DNA from: Strigops habroptila
Taxonomy: Eukaryota > Chordata > Aves > Psittaciformes > Psittacidae
Reading direction: 5' to 3'
Length of the DNA: 64,000 bases
NCBI RefSeq assembly: GCF_004027225.2
Contig: NW_022651109.1
Location: forward strand, 1-64,000
The position numbers were made by a program, and so were the translations under genes. The notes under the pieces are model-generated. The model worked only from the letters and a program-made list of their open reading frames with translations, was not told where the DNA came from and did not search any database. Below, piece by piece: positions 30,001 through 64,000 of this stretch (within the stretch, counting starts at the first letter, position 1; each line of letters begins with the position of its first letter).

Positions 30001-32965
30001 GGATGGGATGCCATGGTCGTGGTGGGATGGGGCACTCATGGCAGGATGGAATGCCATGGTTGTGGTGGGAAGAGACATGATGGTCATGGTGGGATGGGAC
30101 ACCATGGTCATAGTGAGATGGGACACTATGGTCGTGCATGGTTATGGTGGGGTGGGACACCATGGTCATAGTGAGATGGGACACTATGGTCGGGCATGGT
30201 TATGGTAGGATGGGACACTGTGGTTGTGGTGGGATGGGACACCATGGTCAAGGTTGGATGGGACTTTCTACATAGACTTTATGGAGTCTTCATGGACTTC
30301 CTGGAGTCTCCATGGTCATTCTGGACCCACCTCCCTTCCATGCCCATCTTCTAACACAACCTGTCCCACCTCACTTGGAAGACCAAGACCTCTATGATGA
30401 CACCAACATCCCCATTGACCCCATTTCCCTTTCTCCCTTTCTCCTTCTCATTCCCATCCCACCACCCCTTGATTCCATAATGAACATGCCCACCAAGGGG
30501 AGGACCTTTGGGCCCACCAGGAGCTACTCACGACACTGCGCCAATGTCCTCCAGTCCTCAATGGTGACCCCTTCCTCTTGGCAGCTATCTGCATAGGCTT
30601 CCAGGGCTTGGCACAGCATGGTATGGAGCCCATCATTGACACACAGGTCATAGATGCAGTTGTCCAAGTAGACATTGGGGTTGATGGTGGCGTGGCACCT
30701 CCTGAAGGGCCCCATACTTTGGGTCATCATCCCACACGATGTCTCCTCCTTGTACTTGGCCACCTCGTCCCATTGACAACAGTCACAGTCTCCACCACAG
30801 TTGTCCCAACAATGATGGGTCTCGTTGGTCACCTTCCAGCTTGTTCCCAGCTCCACCATGTCCTGGGCCATGTTGCCATCAGGTTTGAGGGCATCATCTT
30901 GAGGGTCACCATTGGCGTTGCCGCATAAGCCACACACTTTGCCAGCGAGGACACTGGGGAGCTTCACCACCACGTGGTCATCCCAGTCATAGAGGACCTT
31001 CAGCTTGAAGGCCGTTTGAAGCAGCATGGACTTGCCTTTTGGCCGTAGATGGAGCTTCCCATTGGCGAGGGTGATGGGGAGGTGGGACCGGTGGTTGTTG
31101 ACCTGGAAGAGGAAGGAAACCCCATGAAGGACCCAAAATGACATCCAAAATGGGGTGAAATGGAAGGGTTTGAGCTTTGGAGGTGTCTTCTGCAAGAGGT
31201 GACCATGCAGAAGCTCATTGAGGTTGAAGAAGACCCTTCAGACATGTCGTTCCCATGTTGCTTTGGATTGACATACCCTCACCATCCCGTTCTCCGACCT
31301 GACCACCACAATGGTCACGCCATAGACACGGATGGTCACGGAACCAACATAGGAGACCTTCAGGTTGCCCCGATGCTCGTTTTTGGCCTCAATGCTGAAG
31401 ACGGGCAGGGTTGGGTCTGGGTCACAGGTCTTGGTCAAGGTGTAGGTGCAGGTGCCCATGAAGTCAAAGGGTTGCCCATCAAAAGTCCTATAGTGAGGAT
31501 CACCGGTGGCCCAGCAGGTTGAGAAGGTCTCTTGGACACATTTGGGTTGTCCATCCACCATCTCGCACTTCTCCTTGCAGGCCAGGTCTTGGCATGAAAG
31601 AGGAGGAGAACCTGTAGAGAAAAAGGGAAGAAAGCCATGGATGGCCACCATGGAGAAGAGAAAGAGGGAGGAAACCCATGGATGGCCACCATGGAGAAGA
31701 CCTCCCCACTGGCAACACACAACCATGGTGTTGATCATACTTACTGGTGGCACAAAGACCACTGAAGCCATAACCAACATAGTTCTGGAAGCCAAAGACC
31801 AGGAGCCCAAAAGGTGTCCTTGGGTGCTCCACACTCTGGATCTCCCCTGGCTTGGTCATGGTGATGGTGGCCCAGGAGAAGTCTGTGCCGGGAATGGTTT
31901 GCCAGGGTATGGTCCTCTCCGTCTTCTGGTTGAATGTTATGGAGCTGGTGTCCACGCTGAGGGCCATGAGGACAACGTGGTTCTCATAGCCGGCCATGCT
32001 GACAACCTGGTAGGACTTGCAGTAGGTGGACACGGGTTGGATGTTGACCATGAAGGGGTCTTGCCTGATGAAGCCCTTGGACCCGGTAAAGAAGAAAACC
32101 ACCTGAACCCCAGCTGAAGCATTGAGATGAAGAGGAGAACTTCTGCCCACCCTGAACTTATGGACCTGCCCGGCCACCATGACCTCGGTGGCAACCGAGT
32201 TACCGCTGTTGTAGCTGATGGAGGTCCTCTCCGCTGCCACCACATAGGCGAAGTCCATGTGCTCCTGCAACGGGTTGGGAGGGATGACATAGACCTTTCC
32301 CCATCCATCAACAGGCAGAAGCTGCTCCACCACATGGTCGCATCCTGTGTGGACCTTCACACAGGTATGGCCACTGAGGACCACCACGGGGTTGTCCGAT
32401 ATGACCTCGGTGCCAGAGAGATCGTAGCTGCTTTGGAGCTGGAAGCTGTGGTAGGAACTCAAGGAGACGTGAAGGATGGTCCCAGAGGAGTAATTCTTCC
32501 CTCTGTAGTAGAAACTACCCTTGGCTTTGATGGCAACAGTGGTTGAGGTCTTCCCGGCCACCACCACCAGCTCCTTCAGCCCATTTCTCCTGTTGTCTTC
32601 TGGTGTCACCACATAATACCTCTGACCCAGCATCTCCACAGGTAGAACCATGGTGGCACCAATCGTGTAGCTCTTGGAGCTGATGGCCACCACCGAGATG
32701 TCCTTGGTGGCCTGGATCAAGACGGCTTTATCCGAAAGCTGGTTGCCCATCAGCTCCACGTTCGCAGGAAGGCGGAGAGGAACCGTGTCACCATTCCCAA
32801 GGGTGATGGTGTTGGAGAAGGCATGGTGGTGCATGGTCACCTTCACCGTGGTGGACGGGGAGTAGGCTGTGAGGAGGAGCTGGGCATCGAGGTAGGTGCC
32901 TTCCACATCGTTCTGCATGAAGGCCATGAGGAATTCCGTGCCGGGAAAAGCCGAGGTGGGAAGAG
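15085..32965 (-). CDS. FCGBP: FCGBP-like (IgGFc-binding protein) gene, seven vWD units
   Basis: Nineteen minus-strand exons join in one frame (about 2,940 codons). Order: IgGFc-binding N-terminal domain (31745-32965), then seven vWD domains, each split over two exons, with C8 and TIL modules between, and a tiny last exon that adds Cys-Cys-Ile and stops at 15237-15239. The architecture matches FCGBP, a secreted mucus protein that associates with MUC2; human FCGBP has 13 vWD domains, so this copy is short. The autocleavage motif GDPH is present in vWD 1, 4 and 5 and lost in 2, 3, 6 and 7. CGLCG or a close form is kept in all but vWD6, which reads HGLCG. The exon with the start codon is uncertain: a candidate at 34955-35003 is in phase but gives no signal peptide. 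Introns carry CR1 pieces and minisatellites. A plus-strand paralogue lies head to head at 41552. Confidence 0.88.
15102..15107 (-). terminator. Poly(A) signal AATAAA of the minus FCGBP-like gene
   Basis: GCAATAAAAGG on the minus strand, 130 bases past the TAG stop, in a short AT-richer stretch that gives a compact 3' UTR. Confidence 0.8.
15237..17995 (-). CDS. Minus FCGBP-like gene, unit 7: TIL, vWD7 without C8, terminal microexon
   Basis: Exons 17796-17995 (TIL), 16990-17364 (VWC-like plus vWD start, FISFDG without GDPH), 16296-16580 (CGICGNYDGN to RAPDFTH) and 15237-15248, which adds CCI and the TAG stop. The plus gene ends in the same way, DFVG then CD and stop, which supports the microexon. 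Confidence 0.8.
15300..16085. repeat. Polypyrimidine/polypurine minisatellite in last intron of minus FCGBP-like gene
   Basis: 780 bases almost free of A on the plus strand, built of CTTTTTGGCCTCTTTCCC and GGGGCTATTTCCCCTC units. On the transcribed strand it is GA-rich. It fills the intron between the terminal microexon and the vWD7 exon. The T/C-rich frames are artefacts. Confidence 0.92.
17440..17745. repeat. Tandem repeat in FCGBP-like intron (CATTGGAAAGG / ATCAAGAAACGTTGAG)
   Basis: Units of roughly 35-60 bases with CCCATTGGAAAGG and AACATCAAGAAACGTTGAGG recur about six times. Confidence 0.8.
18060..18300. repeat. GAACCTCAACCCTGGTC tandem repeat in FCGBP-like intron
   Basis: About six copies of a 40-60-base unit with GAACCTCAACC, TGGTCCATC and AACCAGGTTCCTCCTTG. 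Confidence 0.75.
18327..19752 (-). CDS. Minus FCGBP-like gene, unit 6: TIL, degenerate vWD6, short C8
   Basis: Exons 19166-19752 and 18327-18819. GDPH is replaced by GGTYSTFDG, and the usual CGLCG reads HGLCGDFNGD. The second exon is 493 bases against about 570 in the sister units, the loss falling between vWD and C8. The unit looks structurally relaxed. Confidence 0.82.
19855..20285. repeat. 39-base minisatellite in FCGBP-like intron
   Basis: About 11 copies of a unit holding GGTGCATGGAGAACCCAA followed by CTTGATGCAACCAAGTCTT or CTTGGTAGAACCAGGTTTT. As 39 is a multiple of three, frames on both strands stay open. Confidence 0.92.
20357..22286 (-). CDS. Minus FCGBP-like gene, unit 5: TIL, vWD5, C8
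   Basis: Exons 21688-22286 and 20357-20921. TIL begins CPENSHYEACGTSC; GDPHYTTFDG is intact; the second exon has CGLCGNANGD and a C8 ending WRTAAFC. It closely matches the second unit of the plus-strand gene. Confidence 0.87.
21045..21650. repeat. 31-base minisatellite in FCGBP-like intron
   Basis: About 19 copies of a unit containing ATAGAAGGACCTTGAAACC and CATCTAAACCCCATATGG, filling most of the intron between 20921 and 21688. Confidence 0.92.
22330..22797 (+). mobile_element. CR1 LINE 3' fragment (sense on plus)
   Basis: Contains the CR1 tail hallmarks CAGGTTGGACAGGGCTTG, CTAGTGGAAGG, GATTGGAACTGGATGG and GGTCCCTTCCAACCCATTCC. It lies in an intron of the minus FCGBP-like gene, antisense to it. 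It is 5' truncated, as usual for CR1, and has internal gaps against the usual tail. Confidence 0.85.
23035..25955 (-). CDS. Minus FCGBP-like gene, unit 4: TIL, VWC-like exon, microdomain, vWD4, C8
   Basis: Four exons: 25756-25955 (TIL, CPANSSYSLCTNLC), 24878-25019 (VWC-like, CQQRCTCVPGQGLTC), 24341-24672 (DPCKALRCRPKERCKL, then GDPHYHTFDG) and 23035-23614 (CGLCGNFN, C8 ending WRTPSGC). The microdomain has the C-x4-C-x5-C-x8-C-V spacing repeated in the gene at 57687. A CR1 fragment sits in the first intron. Confidence 0.85.
24140..24425 (-). other. Tandem partial duplication of a vWD4 exon end
   Basis: 24165-24262 repeats the last part of the vWD4 exon and its donor region (24335-24420). The copy reads VYGQHISIHQKDMGKIR against VYGQRISIHQKEMGKVR. 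In the copy the donor GTGAGT has become GTGATT, and no acceptor was seen. It looks like a non-coding exon relic in the intron. Confidence 0.75.
25180..25625 (+). mobile_element. CR1 LINE 3' fragment (sense on plus)
   Basis: Matches the CR1 3' region: GAACTGGATCCAGCTCTGG, GGAGATGCTCCAAGGGCTGG, GAGCTGGGG, CAGGTTGGACAGGGCTTGG, and ends at CCATCCCAACCCAACCCATTC. It lies between the TIL and VWC-like exons of unit 4 of the minus FCGBP-like gene. Confidence 0.85.
26239..27881 (-). CDS. Minus FCGBP-like gene, unit 3: TIL, vWD3, C8
   Basis: Exons 27292-27881 and 26239-26806. TIL begins CPPRSHYELCSQPC. The vWD reads GDRNYMSFDG, a changed GDPH. The second exon holds CGLCGNYNGQ and a C8 ending WRRPSLC. 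Confidence 0.85.
28337..29861 (-). CDS. Minus FCGBP-like gene, unit 2: TIL, vWD2, C8
   Basis: Exons 29263-29861 and 28337-28904. TIL begins CPKNSNYTTCGTSC, and the vWD start reads GATHYETFDG, so GDPH is lost. The second exon has CGLCGNYDGN, a run of methionines in the following loop, and a C8 ending WRTEDFC. Confidence 0.85.
29870..30260. repeat. GGGATGGGACACCATGGTC tandem repeat in FCGBP-like intron
   Basis: Imperfect 24-base units such as GTGGTGGGATGGGACACC and CATGGTCATAGTGAGATGG between the TIL exon of unit 2 and the C8 exon of unit 1. Confidence 0.85.
30532..31611 (-). CDS. Minus FCGBP-like gene, unit 1: microdomain, vWD1 and C8
   Basis: Exons 31277-31611 and 30532-31102. The first starts with the C-x4..C microdomain (SCQDLACKEKC) and then GDPHYRTFDG; the second has CGLCGNANGD and a full C8 set ending WRTLAQC. 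GDPH is intact, so autocatalytic Asp-Pro cleavage is possible. Confidence 0.85.
31745..32965 (-). CDS. Minus FCGBP-like gene, exon for IgGFc-binding N-terminal domain
   Basis: One 1,221-base exon opens at an acceptor after TTCTTCTCCAG and closes at GCCACCA before GTAAGT. It carries EFLMAFMQN, LLLTAYSPSTTVKVT, LSGHTCVKVHTGCDHVVEQLLPVDGWG (positions about 225-250 of the exon) and GYENHVVLMAL, which align with the N-terminal domain of FCGBP. The exon begins after where a signal peptide would end, so a leader exon upstream is required. Confidence 0.85.
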
Positions 32966-41440: not shown

Positions 41441-41551
41441 GTGCCATCACAATCAACCTCAGAACTTCAAGCCATGGGGCAAAGATAAGTCCCATTTTTG
41501 GTAGAAATCAGAGGATTTGACCATTTTCTCCCCTTCTGCAGCAGAAGAACC

Positions 41552-44500
41552 ATGAACCGGGGTGAAGCTGATGTTCTCCTGAGGGGCTGCACCATCGTGT
41601 TTTGGGGTGAGTTCAAACCAGGTGGAGAAATGGACCAAAACTTGCCCAATTCTCCCCAAAATGGCCCCAAAATGAGAGGTTTGGGTCCAAGGAGACACGT
41701 TTTGCACCTCCAAAGAGTCATGGGATGGGTTGGAGGGGAAGGACCTCGAGGAACATCTGGTTCCAAGCCCATGACATGGGCTGGGACAACTTCCACTAGA
41801 GCAGGTTGCTCCAATAGTTCATCAAATGGAAGTCCATCAGATCAATGTCCCTCAGATCAATGTCCCTCAAATCAATTGTCCATCAGATCAAAAAAGTCCG
41901 TCAAATCAAAGTCCATTAGATCAATTGTCCACCTCAAGCCCACCTTGAGTCACATTCCCCACACTTGACCTTATGGGTGATGAAGACACCAACGGCCAAT
42001 TCTCCTCTTCCAGGGCTGCTTTGGTTGCTCAGCGTCTCCGCATCAGCCCTACCTCACCTTGGAGAAGACTTCGTGGTGGCCTTCATGCAGAACGGTTTGC
42101 AGCAGACCCTCAACAGTGACTTCAAGCTGCTCCTCACAGGTTACTCACCCTTTACATCCATCACCATCTCCATGAAGAAGCCAGGCTTGAGGATGACGGT
42201 CCAGGCCACCACTGGCCAAACCATCCTGGTGAAGATCCCACCTCAAGCAGAGATGGTTGGGAGCAAAGTCTTCGACAACACCGTGGTGGTGAAGGCCAAC
42301 AACGCCATCTCCGTGGTCATGGTCAATGAGAAGCCCACCTCGGTGGACTCAACCGTGGTGCACCCAGTGCACACTTGGGGCACCGAGTACCACGTTGTGA
42401 CCCCCAACGTGGGCACCGACCGCTATGGAGAGTTCGTGGTGGTCTCTTGGGATGAACCCACCATGGTTGATGTCCATCTCAAAGCCATGGTGACCTACCA
42501 AGGCCGGACTTACCCTCGGGGCTCAGTTCTTCCCATCAAACTAGAGCCTTTCCAAGCAGCTCAAATCCAAAGTCCATCTGATATGTCTGGCACCAGGATC
42601 ATGGCCCATAAACCGGTGGCCGTCTTCACCGGTCACACTTGCTTGGCCAGGTTCACCCAATGTGACCATCTGGTGGAGCAGCTTCAACCTGTTTCTAGCT
42701 GGGGAACCACTTTCATTGTGCCACCGTTGCCCTTTGAGACTCAAGCCGACATCATCTACGTGTCCACCTCGCAGAAGACCCGTGTGGAGTCTCAACATGG
42801 TGTCTCCAAAGAGGTCCGGGAGCTCCGGCCAAGCAGGTCAACGCTCTATGGTCTCCAAGCCTTCAACACCTTGTACCTGTCGGCCAATGCTGGCATCCAG
42901 GTCATCTTCTTTGCTGATGGAGGTACCAAGGGCTCCATCTCTTATGACCCCTTCTTCATGACCATCCCTGATGTCTCCAGCTACTGTCACTCCTACAACA
43001 TCATTGCCTTGGAAGGGTATGAGAACTATGCCCTGCTCATAGCCAAGACCTCAGAGACATCTGCAATGGTGCTCAACAAGAGCCCCTTGAGGAACATCAT
43101 GTGGAAGAACGTCCCAGGAACCGAGTACTCCTGGGCTGAGCTGATCTTGGGCAACCAGTTCTCGGTCCATATGGTGGAGAATGAGTTGTCCCCCTTTGGG
43201 TTGCTGAGCGTGGGGATCCGGGAGCAGAAAGCCTATGGGTTGGCGGCTGTTTGTGACAGTGGTGAGTGTCCCATGGCCACCTTCTTCACCTCCTTTCTGC
43301 TTCCTTTAGGTGGCCAAACCCACCTGAGATAGGTTGTGATCCATACATGATCCATAGATTAATGGTCTATCAATGGAAGGAGTCTCAAATGGTCAACCCA
43401 GATGTTCAAGTCCAAGGTTTGAAGGTGCTGGTTGACCATCTACGATGATGGTGACCATAAGTGGTCAACCTCAGATGCTCAAGCCCAAGCTTAAGGTGGT
43501 TAAACCCACCTGGGTTAGATCCTGGCTTTAACATAGTAGAGCTCTAGAGGTGTTGGTTGACCATCTATGGTGATGATGGCCACAAGTGGTCAACCCATAT
43601 GGTCAAGTCCAAGCTCTGGAGGTGCTGGTTGACCATCTATGGTGATGGTGATGCTGTCCCCGTCCCTCCCCCCATAGACCATTCCATGTGTGGTTCCTTC
43701 TAGATCCCTGCCGGCTCCTGAAGTGCCGCATGAAGGAGACCTGCAAGTTGGAGAAGGGGGTGGCCACCTGCGTCCATGACTACATGGGCACCTGCATGGG
43801 CTCGCAGGCCTTGCAGTACCACACCTTTGATGGGATGACCATGGACATCCGTGGTGGTTGCACCTACACCATTGCCAAGTACTGTGGCAACGATCCCACC
43901 TTGATGCCTTTCGTTGTGGAGGAGAAGAAGAGTGAAGGCAACATCAAGGAGTGGTTGACCAAGGTCTATGTGTATGGTTCCAACATCTCCATCCACATCG
44001 GGGAAGGAGGTAAAATCCAGGTGGGTTCTTCCAGGTCTTGGAAGTGTTATTCCATGGACAAAGCCAAGTGGAAGAGGGTAAAACATGGTGGTGGGTGAGG
44101 TTGACATAAGAACCTAAGGAGAACTACCAAAACCATGGAGAATTGGGACATAGAAGTGAAGGGGAAGGTGTTCTGGACCTCACTGAGATGCCCTCAGAAG
44201 TGTCTCCATCCAAACCATGGCCACTTTTGGGTTAGAATCAAGGAAAAGGCAGGTTTAAGGCCATAAGTCCACCATGAAATGGGCTTTTGGACTCATAGAT
44301 AATCAACTAACCTTCTCCTTCTCCTTTCCTCCAAGGTCAACAACAAGCCCATCAACGTACCAGCCACATTAGAAGATGGGAAGATCCAGATCTCCCAAAA
44401 CGAAGGCAGGACCATCCTCCAAACAGCTTTTGGGCTGCAGGTGACCTATGATGAAGACTGGTCCATAATGGTGGCCGTGCCCAGCAGCTACTTTGGGGCT

Positions 44501-47500
44501 ACCTGTGGGCTCTGTGGCAACTTCAATGAGGACACTGAGGATGAGATGACCCTTCCTGATGGCACCCAAGCTGCTAACATGGAGGATTGGGCTGAAAGCT
44601 GGCGAGATGCCTCCTGCCAAGATGATTGTGAAGGCCAGGAGATGCTGCAGGACACGTGTGGTGAGTTCCTATTGGGGTCTCCAAGCATTGTAGGGGAGAA
44701 ACCCATGGAGATCTGGTCATGGGGATCCAAGAGGTGCTGCCCAGTCCATTGAGTTGATGCTTGGAGGTGCCAACCAAGTTGATGTCAATCAACATCAACG
44801 AAGGGTTGGGTTGCTCTTTCCATGCCAATCTACCTTCAGCTCCGTAACACCCATCATCTATGTAGGACTTCCTTGAGGGACATCCCCAAGGGGTGTCTCT
44901 TGGGCTTGGGCTCACTTGCAGGCATCATCCAAGCCAGCATCCCCAGCGTTGTCCCTCTAAGTGCTCAGTTCATGCTTTGTTTGAGGTCTTCTTCTCAACT
45001 CTCACCCCAACAGCTCAAAAATGCCCAGAAAACAGCCACTTTGAGGCCTGTGGGACAGCGTGTCCAGCCACCTGCACCCACCCCAGAGGTCCCACCTCCT
45101 GCAGTGAACCATGTACCCCGAGGTGCCATTGCAATGAGGGCTTCGTCCTCCACAACCACACATGTATCCCAGTGGAGACCTGCACTTGTGTCCACAATGG
45201 TCGCTCCTACAAGGCCCAAGAGGAGTTTTGGGATGATGGGACATGCCAAAGCTGGTGTAGATGTGATGGCGGCCAAGTGACCTGTAGGAAGAGGGGGTGT
45301 AAAGCCCATGAGAAGTGTGTGGTGGTCAACGGTGTCCCAAGGTGCCAGGCCATGAAGCACCTCACATGCATTGGGACGGGTGACCCTCACTACACCACCT
45401 TCGATGGGTTGAGATATGACTTCCAAGGGACCTGCATCTACCAGTTCGCAGCCCTCTGCACCCAAAGGGACCCCAAACTGGTCCCATTCACTGTCAAGGT
45501 GGAGAACAACAACCGGGGCAGCAAAGCCGTGTCCTTCACCAAGACCCTCACCTTGGAGGTCTATGGCAACGTCATCACCATGAGCCAGGAGCATCCACGC
45601 AAGGTCAAGGTAGGTGGCCACCAAATCCACCTTCAACCTGCAGCTAAACTGCTCATTTCCTGCTTTTCCTGCCCAAAGCCCCCCTTTCCCCTCATTTTTC
45701 CATGAATAACATCAAAACCCATCCCACATCCCATCGTCCTTTGTTCTCCACTCCCATGTGGCCTTTGGAGCACAATATTCCCTTTCTCCAGCTGCAAAGT
45801 GATTCAGTTCCTATGGGAACAGTTCCATTCTCACCTTCTCCTGGCCAAAGTGTTGCTCATAATGGTTGGGAACAGCTCTTCCCTTGTTTTCCCTCTTGGA
45901 ACAACGTTTTTCCATTGAAGAGTGAAGCCTCCACCTGGAAACCCTCCAAGAACCAAGGTTCTTGGAGGAACATCCAGATCTTGAGCAATCTCAATGTTCT
46001 TGGGAATTGCATCCACGGAAAGTGTTTCACAACCTTCCCTAGATCTTGATTCACTTGGATTTGGCTGGAGACTCTTCCTGGCTTACGGAAAACCACCCAA
46101 ATCCCAAGTGATTGAGGGGTGGTTTGGAAGTTCTCCACGTGGAAAGTGTTTCTCAACCCTGACTTGGGTGGAATTGGACCAGGAAACCTCTCCCAAAAGG
46201 ACTTCCCAGACCTAAAGGGGCTACAAGGAAGCTGGGAAGGGGCTTTGGACAAGGAGATGGTGGGATGGGATGAGGAGAAACAGCTTCCAGCTGGAAGAGG
46301 GAAGAGGTAGATGGGATACGAAGAAGAAGTTCTCCCCTGTGAGGGTAGTGGGACATTGGAATGGGTTGAACTCGGAAGGTTTGGATGTACCTGGAAGGGT
46401 TCAAGGCCAGTTGAATGGAAGCAACCTGATCTAGTGGAAGGTGCCCGGGTCCTTAGATGGTCTTCAAGGCCCCTTCCAACCCAAACCTATGCAACCACCC
46501 GTATCTCGAGCAGGTTGCATGAGTTTGGGTCCACAACCAACCTTCTCCAACCACCTCCCCAGGTCAACGGCGCATTCGTGGAGCTCCCATTCACCAAGAA
46601 GGACCAGTTTGAGCTCTACCACAGTGGTGTCCATGGCTTTGCCCGCACAGCCTTTGGTCTAAGGGTGAGCTTCGACTGGTACAGCTACGCCCGTGTCCTC
46701 CTCCCTGAGGTCTACGCTGGTGCCGTCTGTGGCCTCTGTGGCAACGCCAATGGAGACCCCAATGATGACTTTGTGACCCGCGATGGCCAACGGGCCACCG
46801 ATGAGGTCCACTTGGCCAACAGCTGGAAGGTTGGAGATGTCCCTGGTTGCTCCTCTGGTTGCGAAGGGAATTGTCCAAAGTGCAACCAAGAGGAGAAAGA
46901 ACCCTACCGTGGGGATGGCTATTGTGGGATCATCACCAAGGTTGAAGGACCATTCAGGGCTTGTCATGGTGTGGTCAACCCAACGGCCTTCCTGGAGGAT
47001 TGTGCCTTTGATGCCTGTCACTACAAAGGCCACCGGGACACCTTGTGTAAAGCCATTGCTGCCTATGTGACCGAGTGTCAAAGCCATGGAGTCAACATGG
47101 AGCCATGGAGGACACCAACCTTCTGCGGTGAGTGGGGTCAGAAGGAGGTTCTCCATCCTTCCCGGCCAGGAAATGAAGGTTTGGAGGTCAACCACCCCTT
47201 GTGGCTTTGCTTAGAGCCAATGGAAGCCCAAAAACACTTCCAAAGTTGGGTTGATTTGTCCCATATCCAAAATCTCCTTGTGATGGAATGGGTTTATCTT
47301 CTCCCTCCATAGCTCCAAGGCCAAAGGTTGAGGTTGAAAGCTTCCAAAGCAACATTCCTTCCTTCCTTCCCCCATATAGTCCTCCAGATTCTTCCTAGAT
47401 GCAGGAAAGGGAACACCAAACCCATCCCCATGGCCATATTGATGCTCCACCACCAAACCCATGGAATACTCAACAGCCCCCCACGATGGACCTTCTTATC

Positions 47501-50500
47501 CTGCTGCTTCCAATGGCTTCATCCTTCATCTTCTTCTCCTTCCAGGTCCTTCTTGCCCTCGTCATTCCCACTATGAGCTCTGTGGGACCAGCTGCCCAGC
47601 CACATGCCGTGGTATCTCCAATGCTTGTGGCTCAACCCCATGCACTGAAGGTTGCTTCTGCGACCAGGGCTTTGTCCTCAGTGGGGACGAGTGTGTCCCG
47701 GAGGCCGAGTGTGGTTGTGAGCACCAGGACCTCTACTACAAGAAGGGTGAGGTCTTCTTCTCGTCATGCCGGGAGAGGTGCCGTTGTGAAGCCAACGGGG
47801 TGGTGGAGTGCCAAGAGGTCTTCTGCGGTGCCCATGAGGAGTGCCGGGTGGAGGATGGGGTCTTGGGCTGCTACCCCACCAGTTATGGGCGCTTGGTGGT
47901 GTCTGGTGACCCCCATTACGTGACGTTTGATGGAAGGGCCTTTGACCTCCTGGGTTCCTGCACCTACATCTTGGTGCAGATCTGCAAGCCAGAGAAGTGG
48001 TTGACGGACTTCTCGGTGCTGCTGGAGCATGATGTGGGCCACCGGGGCAATGTGGCCTTGATGAAGAAGGTGGTCACCTCCATCCATGGCCACACGGTCA
48101 GCATGGAGAGGGGACGGCGCTGGGAGGTCATGGTAAGTTGGGTGGGTGCTGCATGGACGTGCAGATATGGCCCATATCTCCATGTAAACCCTTCCTCATC
48201 CTATGTCCACACCTTAGGTGGACGGAGAACGCTACACGCTGCCCTTGGTCACCAAGGACAAGAAGCTACGGGTTGGCCAAGAAGGCAACAACATTGTCCT
48301 CCAGACCATGGCTGGCATCCGGCTCCTCTACAACGTGGCCACCTACCTCCTGGTCACCATCCCTGATGCCTACAAGGGCCACGTGTGCGGATTAGGTGGC
48401 AACTACAATGGGGACCCCAGTGATGACTTCCAGTTGCCTGGTGGCTCCTTGGCACAGAGCACTGAGGACTTTGTCACCTCCTGGAAGGTCCATGCGGAGG
48501 ATGGAACATGCACCGATGGCTGCACCACCACCGTCTGCCCTATTTGTGATGCCACCAATGTCACTCCCTACGTGGGCAGTGGCTCCTGTGGGATCATCCA
48601 GGATCCGATGGGACCTTTCAGCTCCTGCCACCCAAAGGTGAGCCCGGTGGAGTATTTCAACCATTGTCTCCACGATGTCTGTGCTGCTGATGGAGCTCCT
48701 GAGGTCCTCTGCCACAGCATCCAAGCCTATGCTGCTGCTTGTCAAGCTGCCACCGCCGAGGTCAAAGCGTGGAGAACATCCACTTTCTGCCGTAAGTTCT
48801 CCAGAACATCTCCAAGAAGCCACCTCAGCTCCTGTTCTCCTCCAAACCCCACGGTTTCCCCCATAAAACCCATCCAGTTTGACCATTGTGGCTTTGGAGG
48901 CAAGTTCTCCATCACTGTCCACACCAAGAAGATATACAAGTGACCTCCGTGATATCAAAGCTGCCTTTTGCTTAACTCACCCCAAACTCCACCAAATAGC
49001 CCCAAAATCACCTTCAAACCACCTAAAGAAGCTAATTTTGGGGCTCCAATCACCCATTTCCTTCCCAAAACCCACCTTAGAAGGAAGGAATTCCATCCCA
49101 CCACCTCCAGAACATCATCATGTATCTAAGGAGGTGGAAATGGGTGCCCATCAATGTGCTTGTGATCTGAAATGCTTCCATTTGGGTGTTCAAAGCAGGA
49201 TTTGGTTGATTGAACATCTTCTGGTGGCATCAGAGGTGGCCAAGGGCATTGCTGGGGATGTCCCATTGGGTCCAGGTCATGTTTTGGGTGGCAATAATGG
49301 TGTTTCTCCTTCTTGTCCAGCTCTCTCCTGTCCACCCCATAGTCACTATGAGCTCTGCACCCGCACGTGTGACTTCACGTGCTCCAGCCTCTCCATGGCA
49401 GCCCCATGCACTTGGACGTGCTTTGAGGGATGTCAATGTGATGATGGGTACCTCTTCGATGGAGATACCTGCGTGTCTTTGGAGCAATGTGGCTGCTTGC
49501 ACCAGGGAAGGTACTTCAAGGTGAGGTTGGCCATCAAGGCTTTGGTTGAGGGAGGGTAGTGGGTTGTCCCATCTAGATGATGCGACTGGTTTGGAGATAC
49601 CATCTTTGATGAGGTTGGTTGTCCCATCTCATTGATGTAACTGGTTTGGAGATACCATCTTTGATGAGGTTGGTTGTCCCATCTCATTGGTGTAACTGGT
49701 TTGGAGATACCATCTTTGATGAGGTTGGTTGTCCCATCTCATTGATGTAACTAGTTTGGGGTCTCAACCTTCAGTGAGGTGGGTTGTCCCATCGAGATGA
49801 TGCAACAGGCTTGGCACCTCCATCTTCGATGGGATCATCTTAAGGCCACATGTCCAGAAGAACACTGTTGATAACATCCCAAAATCCATGGTTTGTTCCT
49901 CTGGAAAAGGAAAACCAATTCCTTGAGCCCCACCTTCTCCACCATCTCCATGTCCTGGTTTTTCTCTCCCTTTGGGATCTCCTCTCCCATTGGAGATGGG
50001 AAATCCCACCCCCAGAACCTGGAGATGGTTGATCCATATGGACCGACCTCTGATCTTTCCCTTTCCAGGCAGGTGAGACCATCATCTCTAACAACTGCAC
50101 CACAAGATGCACTTGCCACCCATCCCAGGGCCTTGTCTGTGAGGACATCCGGTGTCCCCACGACCAGGTCTGCTCCACACGGGACGGGGCTCAGCTCTGT
50201 GTCAAGCAGCAAGGCCAATGTCACCTCACTCCTGGGGCCTCCTTGAGCACCTTTGATGGCACCAAGGGAATGCTCCTCACCAGTGGCACCTACAAAGTGG
50301 CCGCCCTTTGCAACGAGCAGTCACCCAACTGGTTCAAGGTGGTGGTGGAGGTCAATGAGTGCCGGGAGGACAATGTCCCTGCTGCCGTTGCCATCTTCAT
50401 CTTCTTCCGTGAGGCTTTCATCACCATCAACACCAACATGGAGGTGTCGGTAAGGTGGGGCAAGGACATGGGCAGCCCTTGAGGATGACCAAGAAGGAGT

Positions 50501-51031
50501 CATTAAAGGGAGTTGGGTGGGATTATCTCCTCCTTTTGAGGTGATCAACCCCTGTTTCATCCCAATCCTCCCTTCTCCTTGCTGCAGGTCAATGGTCTTT
50601 CCACCCATCTCCCAACCAATGTGTCCAAAGCCATCTCCTTGAGCACCACAAATGGGAACGTCACCATCTCCCATACATCAGGCATGGATGTGCTCTTCAG
50701 CCCCAAAGGTGCGGTGACAATCACTGTTGGGGCCACCATGGTCAACCGCCTCTGTGCTCCTTGTGGCAACTTCAATGGAGACCCCAAGGATGACCTGAAG
50801 CTTCCCGATGGTCGCGTTGTGAGGAGCATCGCTGAGGTGGTTGATGCCTGGAAAGCCAAGGACTTTGTGGGCTGGTGAGTGAGCTGGAGAGATGTCCCCA
50901 TCCCAACGGGGTGAGATGGTTCGAAGCTCGGCAGGGTAGGGACCAACCTCCATGGGGCAGCAATGGGTTGGGTACGGTGGCCTCCAAGGATGGGCTTCTC
51001 CAGCTTCTTTGGTTTCATCCACAGCGACTGA
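41552..51031 (+). CDS. FCGBP: FCGBP-like (IgGFc-binding protein) gene, four vWD units, short paralogue
   Basis: Twelve exons give one frame of about 1,713 codons: 41552-41606, 42014-43261, 43704-44020, 44336-44660, 45014-45609, 46563-47127, 47546-48132, 48218-48791, 49321-49520, 50069-50449, 50588-50874 and 51025-51031 (TGA at 51029). The signal peptide is split by an intron: MNRGEADVLLRGCTIVFW then GLLWLLSVSASA. Next come the IgGFc-binding domain and four vWD units matching units 4-7 of the minus-strand paralogue. GDPH is intact in units 2 and 3, changed in unit 1 (ALQYHTFDG) and absent in unit 4. Unit 1 lacks nearly all of its C8 domain. Unit 3 reads CGLGG instead of CGLCG. The start exon rests on phase and hydrophobicity only. 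A GTAAGT after the stop suggests a spliced 3' UTR; no poly(A) signal was found. Confidence 0.88.
42014..43261 (+). CDS. Plus FCGBP-like gene, signal core and IgGFc-binding N-terminal domain exon
   Basis: This 1,248-base exon starts after TCCTCTTCCAG. It encodes the signal-peptide core LLWLLSVSASA, then LPHLGEDFVVAFMQNGL, LLLTGYSPFTSITIS, FTGHTCLARFTQCDHLVEQL, GIQVIFFADGG, GYENYALLIAK and GIREQKAYGLAAVCDS. It aligns along its length with the minus-strand exon 31745-32965. Confidence 0.88.
43330..43655. repeat. Tandem repeat in FCGBP-like intron (GTTGACCATCTATGGTGATG)
   Basis: Three to four copies of a unit of about 90-100 bases with GGTGCTGGTTGACCATCTA and ACAAGTGGTCAACC. Confidence 0.75.
43704..44660 (+). 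CDS. Plus FCGBP-like gene, unit 1: microdomain and vWD with C8 missing
   Basis: Exons 43704-44020 (DPCRLLKCRMKETCKL microdomain, then ALQYHTFDG in place of GDPH) and 44336-44660 (CGLCGNFNED). The second exon is 325 bases against about 570 in sister units. It stops after the first C8 residues at LQDTC and its donor keeps the phase to the next TIL exon. The unit equals minus-strand unit 4. Confidence 0.83.
45014..47127 (+). CDS. Plus FCGBP-like gene, unit 2: TIL, vWD, C8
   Basis: Exons 45014-45609 (CPENSHFEACGTACPATC; GDPHYTTFDG) and 46563-47127 (CGLCGNANGD; C8 ending WRTPTFC). Nearly the same as minus-strand unit 5. A CR1 fragment lies in the intron. Confidence 0.88.
46205..46500 (+). mobile_element. 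CR1 LINE 3' fragment (sense on plus)
   Basis: CR1 tail features: GGATGAGGAGAAACAGCTTCC, GTGGGACATTGGAATGGG, GATCTAGTGGAAGGTGCCC and CAAGGCCCCTTCCAACCC. It lies in an intron of the plus FCGBP-like gene, in the gene's own direction. Confidence 0.83.
47546..48791 (+). CDS. Plus FCGBP-like gene, unit 3: TIL, vWD, C8
   Basis: Exons 47546-48132 (CPRHSHYELCGTSCPATC; GDPHYVTFDG) and 48218-48791 (CGLGGNYNGD; C8 ending WRTSTFC). One CGLCG cysteine is replaced by glycine. The matching minus-strand unit 6 instead lost GDPH and the other cysteine. Confidence 0.86.
49321..51031 (+). CDS. Plus FCGBP-like gene, unit 4: TIL, vWD without C8, terminal microexon
   Basis: Exons 49321-49520 (TIL), 50069-50449 (CTTRCTCHPSQGLVC, vWD start LSTFDG without GDPH), 50588-50874 (CAPCGNFNGD to KDFVG) and 51025-51031, which completes Cys-Asp and stops. 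This mirrors the end of the minus-strand gene. Confidence 0.84.
49590..49760. repeat. 60-base tandem repeat in FCGBP-like intron
   Basis: Three near-identical copies of a 60-base unit beginning GATGAGGTTGGTTGTCCC and containing AACTGGTTTGGAGATACC, with diverged edge copies on both sides. Confidence 0.88.
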
Positions 51032-56726: not shown

Positions 56727-56734
56727 GTGAGTCC

Positions 56735-57655
56735 TGGAACTATGGGGTGTCTATGGGGTGCTATGGGGGTCTATGGGGTCAATGGGTGTCCATGGGGTGT
56801 CCATGGGGGTCTATGGGGGTCTATGGGGTCAATGGGTGTCCATGGGGGTCTATGGGGCAGGGTGGGTCCTGGACACCTGGGTCCCATTTCCATACTGGGG
56901 ATGTCTATGGGGTGTCTATGGGGTGTCTATGGGGTCTATGGGTTCCATGGGGCATGGTGAGTCCTGGACCCCCAGGACACATTTCCATACTGGGGCATCT
57001 ATGGGGGCATCTATGGGATCTCTATGGAGGTTTATGGGGTGTCTACGGGGGCCTATGGGGTGTCTATGGGAGGTTATGAAAGTCTATGGGGGGGGGTCTA
57101 TGTGTTCTATGGGGCAGGGTGAGTCCTGGACCCCTGGGTCTCCTTTCCATACTGGAGCATCAATGGGGTGTCTATGGGGTCTATGAAGTTTATGGGGGTC
57201 CAAGGGGGTCTTTGGGGTATATGGAGTGTCTATGGGCTATCTATGGGGTGTTCATGGGGGTCTATGGAGTGTCTATGGGGATTCTATGGGGTCTATGGGG
57301 TCTATAGGGCATGGTGAGTCCTGAACCCCTGGCTCCCATTTCCATACTGGGTGGGTGGGGGGGGTCTATGGGCTGTCTATGGGCTGTCCAGGGGGGTTCT
57401 ATGGGGTCTATGGGACAGGATGGGTCCTGGGTCCCTGGGTCCCATTTCCATACTGGGGGGTCTGTGGGCTGTCTATGGGGGTCTTCGGAGTATATGGGGT
57501 GTCTATGGGCTGTCTATAGGCTACCTATGGGGTGTCCATGGGGGTCTGTGGACTGTCTATGGGGATTCTATGGGGTCTATGGAGCAGGGTGGGTCCCATT
57601 TCCATACTAGAGTGTCTATGGGAGGTCTATTGGTGTCTATGTGGGTCTATGGGGT
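56735..57655. repeat. TCTATGGGG repeat with recurring 45-base donor-like box in intron 1
   Basis: The intron is built of GGTGTCTATGGGG-type units. Six times, at about 56857, 56948, 57115, 57310, 57415 and 57585, a longer box appears containing GGTGAGTCCTGGACCCC or a variant and then CCCATTTCCATACTGG. The first part of the box copies the exon 1 donor. Confidence 0.85.
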
Positions 57656-57686
57656 CTCACCATCCTCTCTCCAACCTGTGGGGCAG

Positions 57687-60600
57687 ATGGGGCCTCCTCG
57701 GACCTTCCTCCTCTGGGCTTGGCTCCTGCTCCACTGTGGTGAGTCCTATTTGGCCAAAATCCCTCATTTTCTCCCCAAATTCCCTCCCCCCACCCCCAAA
57801 TCTGGTCTTTTCCACCCCAAATTTGCCTTTTCCACCTCCCCTTTTCCTTCTCCAACCCCCAAGTTGGTCATTTTCCACCCCAAATCCCCTTTGGAATGAG
57901 CAACCACGAGGGCTCAACCCCTATACAAGCCCTTGGAGAATCCCCATCCCTTACATCCTCCCATGGACATGGTCATAAGGCAGGGAAGAGCTTCACTGGG
58001 TGGAAGGAGAGCAAATCCAGTCGGGAATTCCACCTCCTTGGCCGCCAGAAGAAGCTGCCTCAGGCTGTGGTGGCTTCTCTGGTGTCTCGTAAGGGGTTGG
58101 GCCGTTGTTCATGGAGCTCCTGGTGTCATTCCAGGGGCAGATCCATCAATCCCAAGTGGATCCAAGCTCTGCCTTGGGGTGCGATGTGGACCTGGGAGAA
58201 CCTGCAAAGTGATGGAGAACGGGCCCAAGTGTGTCCCCTTGGCCTCATGCAAGGAAACCCGTTGTGGAGCAGGAACCCAATGCAAGATGGTCGATGGGTG
58301 GCCCAAGTGTGTCCCAGTCCCATCATGCCAGAACACCCACTGTGGAGCAGGAACCCAATGCAAGATGGTTGATGGGTCTCCAAAGTGTGTCCCATTACCT
58401 TCATGCCTCAACTTCCATTGTGGAGCAGGAACCCAATGCAAGATGGTCAATGGGTGGCCCAAGTGTGTCCCATTGCCCTCATGCAAGGACATCCAATGTG
58501 GAGCAGGAACCCAATGCAAGATGGTTGATGGGTCTCCAAAGTGTGTCCCGTTGCCTTCATGCCTCAACTTCCATTGCAAGACAGGAACCCAGTGCAAGAT
58601 GATGGATGGGTGGCCCAAGTGTGTCCCAGTCCCATCATGCCAGAACACCCATTGTGGAGCAGGAACCCAATGCAAGATGGTTGAAGGGTCACCCAAGTGT
58701 GTCCCATTACCTTCATGCCTCAACTTCCAGTGTGGAGCAGGAACCCAATGCAAGATGGTCAATGGGTGGCCCAAGTGTGTCCCATTGCCCTCATGCAAGG
58801 ACATCCAATGTGGAGCAGGAACCCAGTGCAAGATGGTTGATGGGTCTCCAAAGTGTGTCCCGTTGCCTTCATGCCTCAACTTCCATTGTGGAGAAGGAAC
58901 CCAATGCAAGATGGTCAATGGGTGGCCCAAGTGTGTCCCAGTCCCATCATGCCAGAACACCCATTGTGGAGCAGGAACCCAATGCAAGATGGTCAATGGG
59001 TGGCCCAAGTGTGTCCCATTGCCCTCATGCAAGGACATTCGTTGTGGAGCAGCAACCCAGTGCAAGATGGTTGATGGGTCTCCAAAATGTGTCCCATTGC
59101 CTTCATGCCTCAACTTCCATTGCAAGACAGGAACCCAATGCAAGATGGTCAATGGGTGGCCCAAATGTCTTCCAGTCCCATCATGCCAGAACACCCATTG
59201 TGGAGCAGGAACCCAATGCAAGATGGTTGATGGGTCTCCAAAGTGTGTCCCATTGCCCTCATGCCTCAACTTCCATTGTGAAGAAGGAACCCAATGCAAG
59301 ATGGTCAATGGGTGGCCCAAGTGTGTCCCATTGCCCTCATGCAAGGACATCCAATGTGGAGCAGGAACCCAGTGCAAGATGGTTGATGGGTCTCCAAAAT
59401 GTGTCCCATTGCCCTCATGCAACAACTTCCATTGTGAAGAAGGAACCCAATGCAAGATGGTCAATGGGTGGCCCAAGTGTGTCCCAGTCCCATCATGCCA
59501 GAACACCCATTGTGGAGCAGGAACCCAATGCAAGATGGTTGATGGGTCTCCAAAGTGTGTCCCGTTGCCTTCATGCCTCAACTTCCATTGTGGAGCAGAA
59601 ACCCAATGCAAGATGGTCAATGGGTGGCCCAAGTGTGTCCCATTGCCCTCATGCAAGGACATCCGCTGTGGAGCAGGAACCCGGTGCAAGATGGTTGATG
59701 GGTCTCCAAAGTGTGTCCCGTTGCCTTCATGCCTCAACTTCCATTGTGAAGAAGGAACCGAGTGCAAGATGGTCAATGGGTGGCCCAAGTGTGTCCCAGT
59801 CCCATCATGCCAGAACACCCATTGTGGAGCAGGAACCCAATGCAAGATGGTTGAAGGGTCACCCAAGTGTGTCCCATTGCCTTCATGCCTCAACTTCCAT
59901 TGTGGAGAAGGAACCCAGTGCAAGATGATGGATGGGTGGCCCAAGTGTGTCCCCAAGCCCTCGTGTCAGAACTTCCCATGCAAGGGAAGGACCCGTTGCC
60001 ACATGGTGGCCGGGAGACCCAAGTGTCTCCCCACCCCTTCGTGTCGCCTCTTCCGCTGTGAGGAAGGCATGAGGTGCAAGATGGTTGGGGGTTGGCCCAA
60101 ATGTGTCCACCTCGCCCCATCCTGCCACCTCATTCGCTGTCCCAAGGGGACCCAATGCAAGGTGGTGGATGGGTGGCCCAAGTGCGTGAGGAAACAGCTC
60201 TTCCAAAGGGAAGCTCCATCACCGCCAGGTCTCCAGAGGTCACCATCCTGCCACCAGCATCCTTGTCCTCAAGGGACCACGTGTAAGGTGCTCGATGGTT
60301 GGCCACAGTGTGTCCAAGCCAAGATGCCCTCAAGGAGACCTTCTTGTGGCGACATCCAATGTCCTAAAGGGACCACATGCAAGATGACCGATGGGTGGCC
60401 TCACTGTGTCCAAACCCAACCCACCTGCCAGAGCATCCAATGCCAGCAAGGAACCGTGTGCCACATGGTCAATGGTTGGCCACGGTGTGTCCCAACCAAG
60501 ATGTCCCCAACCCAACCATGCCAAGAGGTCCAATGTCCCAAAGGAACCTCCTGCAAGCTGATGGATGACCAACCGCGGTGCGTCCATAACCCACCTTCCT

Positions 60601-63600
60601 GTGAGGACATCCAATGCCAGCAAGGAACCGTGTGTCACATGGTTGACGGGTGGCCTTGGTGTGGCCCAATGAAGATCTCCCACCCATCAGTGGTCCACAA
60701 ACCGCCATCATGTCAAGAGGTCCATTGCCAGAAGGGGACCATGTGCAAGATGTTGGATGGGTGGCCCAAGTGTGTTGGACCTCTGCCTTCATGCAGGGAC
60801 ATCCAGTGTCCCAAAGACACCATGTGCCAGATGGTTGGGTCTTGGCCTAAGTGTGTCCATAACCCACCTTCCTGCAGCAGCTTCTGGTGTCCCAAAGGGA
60901 CCTCCTGCTCCATGGAGCGTGGTTGGCCTCGTTGTGTGCAGAAAGGGTTGGTCCATCACCAAGAAGCTTCTCCAGCTTGGGGTGGGACAAGGAAGTCTTC
61001 CAATGCACGGCCCATCCCAAAGCAACCACCAAAGATGAGGACAACGTGCGCTGAGGTGACGTGTCACCATGGGACCACATGTAAGGTGATGGATGGTCAA
61101 CCACAGTGTGTCCATCAGCAGCCATCCTGCCAGCAGATCCAGTGTCAGAAGGGAACCTCCTGTCAGATGGTTGATGGTTGGCCAAGATGCATCCAAGCCA
61201 AGACCTCCATTAGAAGACCTTCATGCATCGATCTCCACTGTCCCCAAGGTACCAACTGTAACATGGTCAATGGTCAACCCCAGTGTGTCCAAACCAAGAT
61301 GCCCCCAAGGCCACCTTCATGTAGTGACATCCAGTGTCCCAAAGGGACCACGTGTAAGATGCTGGATGGTCAACCCCAGTGTGTCCATCACCAACCTTCA
61401 TGCCAGGATGTCCAATGCCAGAGGGGAACCTCCTGTCAGATGGTTGATGGTTGGCCAAGGTGCATCCAAACCAAGACCTCCATTAGAAGACCCTCATGCA
61501 TCGATCTCCAGTGTCCCAAAGGGACCACGTGCAAGATGACCAATGGTTGGCCTCAATGTGTCCATCCCCAACCCTCCTGTAGTGATGTCCAGTGTCCAAA
61601 GGGCACCACCTGTAACATGGTCAGTGGGTGGCCTCAATGTGTCCATCACCAACCTTCATGCCAGGATGTCCAGTGTCAGAAAGGGACCACGTGTCAGATG
61701 GTTGATGGTTTGCCAAGATGCATCCAAGCCAAGACCTCCATAAGGAGACCTTCCTGCATCGATCTCCACTGTCCCCAAGGTACCAACTGCAACATGGTCA
61801 ATGGCCAACCCCAGTGTGTCCAAACCAAGATGCCCCCAAGGCCACTTTCATGTAGTGACATCCATTGTCCCCAAGGGACCATGTGTAAGATGCTGGATGG
61901 TCAACCCCAGTGTGTCCATCGGCAGCCATCCTGCCAGGAGATCCAGTGTCAGAAGGGGACCGTGTGCCAGATGGTTGATGGTTGGCCAAGATGCATCCAA
62001 ACCAAGACCTCCATTAGAAGACCTTCATGCATTGATCTCCACTGTCCCCAAGGTACCAACTGCAACATGGTCAATGGTCAACCCCAGTGTGTCCAAACCA
62101 AGATGCCCCCAAGGCCACCTTCATGTAGTGACATCCAGTGTCCCAAAGGGACCACATGTAAGATGCTGGATGGTCAACCCCAGTGTGTCCAGAACCAACC
62201 TTCATGCCAGGATGTCCAATGCCAGAAGGGGACCTTGTGCCAGATGGTTGATGGTTGGCCAAGGTGCATCCAAACCAAGACCTCCATAAGGACACCTTCC
62301 TGCAGTGACCTCCAATGTCCCCAAGGGACCACATGTAAGATGATGGATGGTCAACCACAGTGTGTCCACAACCAACCTTCTTGCCAGGATGTCCAATGTC
62401 AGAAGGGGACCATGTGTCAGATGGTTGATGGTTGGCCAAGATGCATCCAAGCCAAGACCTCCATTAGGGCACCTTCTTGCATTGACCTCCACTGTCCACA
62501 TGGGACCACATGTAAGATGCTGGATGGTCAACCACAGTGTGCCCACAACCAACCAACCTGCAGTGACATCCAGTGTCAGAAGGGAACCACCTGCAACATG
62601 GTCAATGGATGGCCACGGTGTATGCAACCCAAGATCTCCATCAGGAGACCTTCCTGCAGTGACCTCCAGTGTCCCAAAGGAACCACCTGCAACATGGTCA
62701 ATGGGTGGCCTCAGTGTGTCCATCACCAACCTTCATGCCAGGATGTCCAGTGTGGGAAAGGAACCTCCTGCCAGATGGTTGATGGTTGGCCAAGATGCAT
62801 CCACACCAAGACCTCCATAAAGAGACCTACATGCCGTGATCTCCACTGTCCCCATGGAACCACCTGTAACATGGTCAATGGTCAACCCCAGTGTGTCCAA
62901 CCCAAGATGCCCCCAAGGCCACCTTCATGTAGTGACATCCATTGTCCCCAAGGGACCACATGTAAGATGCTGGATGGTCAACCCCAGTGTGTCCATCATC
63001 AACCAACCTGCAGTGACATCCAGTGTCAGAAGGGAACCACCTGCAACATAGTTGATGGTTGGCCAAGGTGCATCCAAACCAAGACCTCCCTTATGAGACC
63101 TACTTGCAGCCACCTCCACTGTCCCAAAGGGACCACCTGCAACATGGTCAATGGGTGGCCACAGTGTGTCTATCACCAACCCTCCTGCAGTGACATCCAG
63201 TGTCCCAAGGGTGCCACCTGCAGCATGGTCAATGGGTGGCCTCACTGTGTCCAACCCAAGATCTCCATCAGGAGACCTTCATGCAGTGACCTCCAATGTC
63301 CCAAAGGAACCACCTGCAACATGGTCAATGGGTGGCCTCACTGTGTCCATCACCAACCTTCATGCAGTGACATCCAGTGTCCCAAGGGTGCCACCTGCAA
63401 CATGATCAATGGTTGGCCTCAGTGTATCCAAGCCAAGACCTCCATAAGGAGACCTTCCTGTAGTGACCTCCAATGTCCCAAAGGGACCACCTGCAACATG
63501 GTCAATGGGTGGCCTCACTGTGTCCAACCCAAGATCTCCATCAGGAGACCTTCCTGCAGTGACCTCCAATGTCCCAAAGGAACCACCTGCAACATGGTCA

Positions 63601-64000
63601 ATGGGTGGCCTCACTGTGTCCAACCCAAGATCTCCATCAGGAGACCTTCCTGCAGTGACCTCCAATGTCCCAAAGGAACCACCTGCAACATGGTCAATGG
63701 GTGGCCTCAGTGTGTCCATCACCAACCTTCATGCCAGGATGTCCAATGCCAGAAGGGAACCTCCTGTCAGATGGTTGATGGTTGGCCAAGATGCATCCAA
63801 ACCAAGACCTCCATAAGGAGACCTTCATGCATCGATCTCCACTGTCCCCAAGGGACCACCTGTAACATGGTCAATGGCCAACCCCAGTGTGTCCAAACCA
63901 AGATGCCCCCAAGGCCACCTTCATGTAGTGACATCCAGTGTCCCAAAGGGACCACGTGTAAGATGCTGGATGGTCAACCCCAGTGTGTCCATCACCAACC
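57687..64000 (+). CDS. Secreted protein of about 67 tandem four-cysteine modules (FOLN/FCGBP-microdomain-like), runs off the window
   Basis: Exon 57687-57738 encodes the signal peptide [17 protein letters not shown]. The next exon, from 58135, joins in phase and stays open to base 64000, about 1,955 codons with no stop and no intron. After a short lead it consists only of modules with spacing C-x4-C-x5-C-x8-C, usually followed by V or I. I count about 67 (the last is cut), all with four cysteines. Modules 1-24 are exactly 26 residues with K-M-V-(D/N)-G-(W/S)-P-K before the last cysteine. From about 60100 linkers vary between modules, mostly 27 or 32 residues per module. The spacing equals the microdomain before vWD domains in the neighbouring FCGBP-like genes and resembles follistatin N-terminal (FOLN) modules. 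The function is unknown; it is likely an extracellular, disulfide-rich fibre or mucus component. Confidence 0.85.
58167..60038 (+). repeat. Module block A: 24 modules of 78 bases, four-module higher-order repeat
   Basis: Exact 78-base units. The residues after the first cysteine define subtypes KDIQ, LNFH and QNTH. From module 5 they recur in the order KDI, LNF, QNT, LNF, a 312-base higher-order unit, with one position skipped. Very low divergence points to recent expansion or homogenisation. Confidence 0.9.
60039..61096 (+). repeat. Module block B: diverged modules with variable linkers
   Basis: About ten modules that share the cysteine spacing but differ in sequence. Linkers reach about 35 residues near 60960-61035, where a basic, proline-containing stretch separates two modules. 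This looks like the older, unhomogenised part of the array. Confidence 0.8.
61097..64000 (+). repeat. Module block C: three-module higher-order repeat of 273 bases
   Basis: Modules cycle among three types with fixed linkers: one ending [13 protein letters not shown] (32 residues), one ending [13 protein letters not shown] (32) and one ending PQCVHHQP (27), together 91 residues or 273 bases. Later cycles are mixed with [11 protein letters not shown] forms. All copies keep the frame. The array continues past the window. Confidence 0.88.

Follow-up and report, generated by a model that had tools for sequence, protein, structure and literature searches.

The question raised by this locus is which protein is encoded by a very long open exon of four-cysteine modules, and from which gene that protein came. 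The window, meaning the whole 64,000-nt stretch that was analysed, is the first 64 kb of its own contig (C81, 229,176 bases). A sequence-only reading had described a signal-peptide exon joined to one long open exon at the end of the window, and had taken the product for a possibly undescribed family built of nothing but about 67 modules. The two exons and their junction are borne out here, and sequence comparison identifies the repeat array as the gene for cysteine-rich eggshell membrane protein (CREMP), a family that has already been described. The parts of this gene that lie in the window are:

57687..57738, plus strand: predicted CREMP signal-peptide exon, 17 residues and 1 nt, donor GTGAGT, phase 1
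58135..64000, plus strand: array exon, window part, continuing on contig C81 to 67193
58170..60041, plus strand: modules 1-24, with 5-residue linkers throughout and a similarity peak at a lag of four modules
60042..63986, plus strand: modules 25-67, with CREMP a (6-residue) and b (11-residue) linkers and four odd linkers of 10-37 residues

The array exon has its AG acceptor at 58133-58134 and is joined in phase 1 to the signal-peptide exon, from which only a 396-nt intron separates it. Inside the window 67 strict C-x4-C-x5-C-x8-C modules follow each other in one frame without a stop, the first at 58170 and the last starting at 63924. The 268 cysteines among the 1,954 exon residues are exactly 67 x 4 and all lie in modules, so the earlier count of 268 with none lost was accurate. 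Similarity among modules 3-23 was highest at a lag of four (mean module identity 0.86 vs 0.69 at a lag of one), which suggests that the block with 5-residue linkers probably grew by units of four modules. Minisatellites occupy much of positions 1-64000, introns included (219 tandem-repeat rows in the window), and a repeat of the GGGGTCTAT type makes up the intron at 56727-57686, which precedes the signal-peptide exon.

The CREMP module was named in 2011 by Kodali et al., and that paper distinguishes an a form, C-X4-C-X5-C-X8-C-X6, from a b form with X11 and reports a-b, a-b-b or all-a runs for chicken, zebra finch and green anole (PMC3068167). PDB entry 9pgb, a '4-module Cysteine Rich Eggshell Membrane Protein', was the closest solved chain for all three array pieces tried, with E values of 9e-30, 8e-45 and 4e-78. 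When five a-b-a-b runs were compared with the chicken construct, the best two were identical at 87 of 118 residues and the remaining three at 76-82. The array shares with chicken CREMP the four-cysteine spacing, the a and b linkers, the a-b and a-b-b order and the cysteine content (13.7% here vs 13.8% in PMC4608100). The proposal of an undescribed family is contradicted by these matches; a named family is found for the module, but the papers searched contained no match for the architecture of the whole protein.

The 66 linkers of the window divide into 18 of type a (X6), 20 of type b (X11), 24 of X5 and 4 odd ones, and the corresponding numbers for the whole array are 35, 32, 26 and 6. Among the window modules K25 was present in 20/20 b and 0/18 a, and P26 in 18/18 a and 0/20 b, in agreement with the CREMP rules, under which K25 occurs only in b and P26 belongs to a and is absent from b. 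Of the five residues given as invariant in the chicken description, P19 was constant here (18/18 a, 20/20 b), whereas D3 (13/18 a, 17/20 b), K8 (12/18 a, 13/20 b), G9 (17/18 a, 20/20 b) and G17 (16/18 a, 20/20 b) were not, and P7, described in chicken as present in a and never in b, was found in 15/18 a but also in 10/20 b. The a and b cores were also mixed in a poorly resolved module tree of 67 rows and 63 columns, whereas in chicken they are segregated. The invariant residues and the a/b segregation are descriptions of chicken sequences, not definitions of CREMP.

In Pfam, FOLN (PF09289) scored above its cut-off (88.4 and 105.2 bits, cut-off 21.1). TILa (PF12714) reached 178.3 and 170.2 bits (cut-off 27), but its best stretches reached only positions 33-54 and 34-54 of 55, and it was rejected as the family of the module because the match covers the last part of the profile alone. 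An NCBIfam match at 24.7 bits was also rejected, the cut-off being 120. A protein-database search with modules 53-67 returned 4,926 candidates, none at E <= 0.001, and the array had no match to viral contigs. With a 94-residue module query, the 40 matches listed (49 candidates scored) were all on the window's own contig, in an assembly of 1.149 Gb and 89 contigs. Structure models of the X5 block (pLDDT 88.6, pTM 0.45) had one beta hairpin in each module, and a model of an a-b-a-b run was less certain (pLDDT 68.7, pTM 0.25). The top Foldseek match of both was 9pgb (E 6e-7 and 1e-11) with a TM of about 0.2, so these models inform on the module and not on the overall shape.

When the array exon is followed beyond the window it ends at 67193, giving an exon of 9,059 nt that holds 100 strict modules and, in addition, a half module with two cysteines. 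The number of about 67 modules is therefore correct inside the window, but it is an effect of the window's edge. The half module lies in a linker of 43 residues after module 89 (C81 65871-66062). Modules 90-100 (C81 66063-66935) are more diverged, with linkers mostly of 5 or 6 residues, and this divergence fits the expected old edge of an expanding array. The statement that the exon encodes nothing but modules likewise holds inside the window, but beyond it the same frame enters a VWD domain; the open frame runs from 58137 to 67214, and module 100 passes into the first half of that domain without an interrupting stop. In a 107-residue piece made of module 100 and the VWD start, the module accounts for a match to 9pgb (4.9e-16), and residues 1-102 are matched by FCGBP chains (8e-11 and 2e-10). 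Since the array exon leads into a VWD like that of FCGBP, the four-cysteine module is not the protein's sole building block. Five further exons follow on contig C81:

67844-68063 (C81), plus strand: tail exon, recognised by frame, splice signals and phase only
69192-69496 (C81), plus strand: tail exon, recognised by frame, splice signals and phase only
70372-70873 (C81), plus strand: tail exon with a VWD or C8 Pfam match
71587-71942 (C81), plus strand: tail exon with a VWD or C8 Pfam match
72947-73466 (C81), plus strand: tail exon with a VWD or C8 Pfam match

Together the seven exons form 3,671 codons uninterrupted by a stop; their acceptors are AG, their donors GTGAG, and the phases alternate. 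VWD or C8 was detected by Pfam in three of the five downstream exons, and the first two had no match by Pfam and none by tblastn with FCGBP. For both tail exons tried, the best PDB match was FCGBP (3e-116 and 1.5e-110, each summed over several stretches). Three CGxC motifs are kept in the tail and GDPH is absent from it; the Pfam scan of the tail gave no TIL and no TILa, and a shortened TIL stretch was recognised by eye alone. Since VWD and C8 were found while GDPH and full TIL/TILa units were absent, the gene is FCGBP-related, not an FCGBP. A terminal exon with its stop codon was not found in 73.5-83.6 kb, where the listed open frames rich in cysteine had the look of repeats; the plus-strand Pfam scan gave nothing from 73.5 kb until fibrillarin, and tblastn with 13 FCGBP pieces gave nothing in 73.5-143.9 kb. 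The next plus-strand gene seen downstream is represented by fibrillarin exons at about 83.2-86.2 kb on C81. Because FCGBP and FBL are presumably neighbours in human as well, the CREMP locus may be the ancestral FCGBP locus.

Two FCGBP-like genes stand head-to-head in the window upstream of the array, and the one on the plus strand apparently has fewer VWD units. The IgGFc_binding domain was looked for in the plus-strand gene of the two. These genes and their stand-alone modules are:

15996..32100, minus strand: FCGBP-like gene with VWD, TIL and TILa exons, ends approximate
24605..24667, minus strand: second stand-alone FOLN-type module of the minus-strand gene, before a VWD
31538..31594, minus strand: stand-alone FOLN-type module that opens a FOLN-VWD exon, two residues shorter than that of CREMP
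41551..50875, plus strand: FCGBP-like gene with IgGFc_binding, VWD, TIL and TILa, its end taken as the last VWD open frame
43709..43771, plus strand: stand-alone FOLN-type module of the plus-strand gene, at the start of a phase-1 exon and ahead of a VWD

In total 11 modules of this kind were found in both genes, ten by pattern and one (that at 31594) by profile. Eight are TILa tails (four by Pfam and four by context) and three are the stand-alone FOLN-type modules, which have a phase-1 acceptor in common with CREMP. Outside the array the CREMP profile, run on 1,499 open frames, matched best at the module at 31594 (23.4 bits, E 3e-6). When DNA was compared, the three stand-alone modules scored 25, 26 and 22, against maxima of 15, 16 and 15 from 30 codon shuffles per module, whereas the eight TILa tails scored 12 to 16.5; one tail, at 50138, exceeded its own shuffle maximum (16.5 vs 15) and another, at 47809, tied at 14. 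In protein scores on the CREMP profile the module at 31594 reached 28.4 bits and the other ten FCGBP modules at most 16.3, but a follistatin-type FOLN reached 22.9, which is near enough to 28.4 that protein similarity alone does not prove an FCGBP origin. The argument for that origin is instead made from the DNA result, the exon phase, the FOLN-VWD colinearity and the neighbourhood. Module 100 with the VWD start is colinear with the FOLN-VWD exon of the minus-strand gene (32% over 110 columns, 4e-13), and tblastn between the two gave 1.8e-9.

CREMP resembles FCGBP in having FOLN directly before VWD, in the combination of VWD and C8, and in the phase-1 acceptor and phase-0 donor around the FOLN-VWD exon. 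It differs in having 100 FOLN modules where FCGBP has single ones, in a tail without GDPH in which TILa was not found by Pfam or tblastn, and in lacking the IgGFc-binding domain, since tblastn with the N-terminal exon of the plus-strand gene gave nothing after 57 kb. When the CREMP promoter region was compared with the window by blastn, only minisatellite matches were obtained and none to the FCGBP promoters. On account of the VWD tail, the colinearity and the DNA likeness of the stand-alone modules, CREMP looks like an FCGBP paralogue in which the FOLN module was multiplied about 100-fold. As far as sequence can tell, it is probable that this gene encodes CREMP, a structural protein in the eggshell-membrane fibres of birds, and has its paralogues in the FCGBP genes beside it.

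Three other explanations have to be weighed against this one. Satellite DNA that is open by chance, without a protein product, would account for the tandem periods of the array (78, 81, 96, 177 and 273 nt), for minisatellites nearly throughout the window and for long open runs in two other frames of the same stretch (609 codons on the minus strand and 441 in another plus frame). Because the repeat period is a multiple of three, an open frame alone is weak evidence. The cysteine codons of the window modules showed 0/536 changes from consensus at positions 1-2 and 51/268 at position 3, which is beyond chance. In 1,000 runs of a null with uniform substitution, a mean of 155 cysteines was lost (least 126) and 47 stops were gained on average (least 24), where none of either was observed. 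In the whole array 0/400 cysteine codons were lost across the 100 strict modules, partly because only strict modules were counted. The comparison of synonymous and non-synonymous change that had been proposed earlier gave a pooled dN/dS of 0.44 in modules 1-25 and 0.21 in modules 26-67, ratios that are descriptive because module pairs are not independent. With a relative that is expressed in chicken, as PMC4608100 reports, the satellite reading is disfavoured to the point of being barely credible, and the earlier view that coding is under selection stands.

The two remaining explanations accept CREMP. The working protein could be the module array alone, with a transcript that stops early, or with a VWD tail that is left out, removed by cleavage or decaying. 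This would explain why a terminal exon was not found, why GDPH is missing from the tail and why TIL is shortened there, and the published CREMP fragments consist of modules only. Yet the VWD half shares its exon and frame with module 100, and frame and phase are kept by the seven exons over their full length along with the three CGxC motifs, so this explanation is unlikely. Alternatively, the module came from another FOLN-bearing gene and an FCGBP-type tail was joined to it later. Besides the profile score of the follistatin-like FOLN, FSTL3 and FSTL1 were among the PDB matches of the array; these have a single module of the same fold class with a FOLN Pfam match, but their similarity is weak (E 0.004-0.007). 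Follistatins pair FOLN with a Kazal domain. The likeness in DNA between the array and the three stand-alone modules of the FCGBP-like genes, the FOLN-VWD colinearity and the tandem neighbourhood argue against such a source, which we also consider unlikely. The motif C-X4-C-X5-C-X6-10-C also occurs in the slime-mould spore coat protein SP75, compared here by description only, which is reported as much more variable (PMC3068167).

A wider model, to which we give about an even chance, derives the protein of eggshell-membrane fibres from the mucus protein FCGBP and has its VWD/C8 tail join the rods, for birds and probably also for other reptiles that lay eggs. A tandem FCGBP copy would have lost its IgGFc-binding N-terminal part, which would have brought the signal-peptide exon to the phase-1 FOLN-VWD exon, and the FOLN unit would then have multiplied within that exon to about 100 copies in 9 kb. 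The chain would be secreted via the ER by isthmus gland cells, and its cysteines would pair within modules, two disulfides each, to give a stiff extended rod; the disulfide-rich and probably elongated product expected by the sequence-only reading is supported, and egg coats, one of its tissue guesses, fit CREMP. D-assemblies link chains in FCGBP, mucins and VWF, and by analogy the VWD/C8 tail may join CREMP rods into disulfide-linked fibres. The lysines, one per b linker seen in the window, could take later lysyl-oxidase cross-links. For this genome the model is drawn from sequence, and expression and fibre function are those known from the chicken papers.

As a natural fibre the eggshell membrane is abundant, and its proteins are difficult to analyse. 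A recombinant four-module chicken fragment was ordered, anisotropic and oxidised by QSOX1, and the number and length of CREMP proteins were then unknown (Kodali et al. 2011, PMC3068167). Du et al. (2015) found the 5' end and N-terminus unclear and predicted unconventional secretion (PMC4608100). For one genome the locus described here addresses these printed gaps in length and secretion signal: a single locus was found, its predicted signal peptide is of the classical kind, its 100 modules are followed by a VWD/C8 tail, and an origin from FCGBP is likely. The signal peptide, the 24 leading X5 modules, the full 100 modules and the VWD/C8 tail go beyond the published fragments as far as those sources were available. 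The protein and its module family were already known, and what is new is found past the end of the window. No statement of the full architecture or the FCGBP link was found in the searchable literature, which excludes subscription papers, preprints, gene-database annotation and the paper behind 9pgb, so they may be known there. If true, the link would tie egg membranes to gel-forming mucus proteins and hint at how CREMP chains join.

In chicken white isthmus CREMP transcripts rose 58-70-fold and those of FCGBP 7.6-34-fold, according to PMC4608100, and the neighbourhood of the two genes perhaps explains this joint rise. In one eggshell-membrane powder, CREMPs accounted by spectral count for 27% of the main proteins, and its protein list includes CREMP1-6 and an IgGFc-binding-protein-like entry (PMC6811977). 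In chicken, CREMP1-6 may derive from several genes or be pieces of a single one. Within the array studied here the core DNA is identical in two module pairs, 38/67 and 60/63. Modules 60 and 63 are both b by linker, or a and b by tree labels, a pattern that suggests a possible exchange between core and linker classes.
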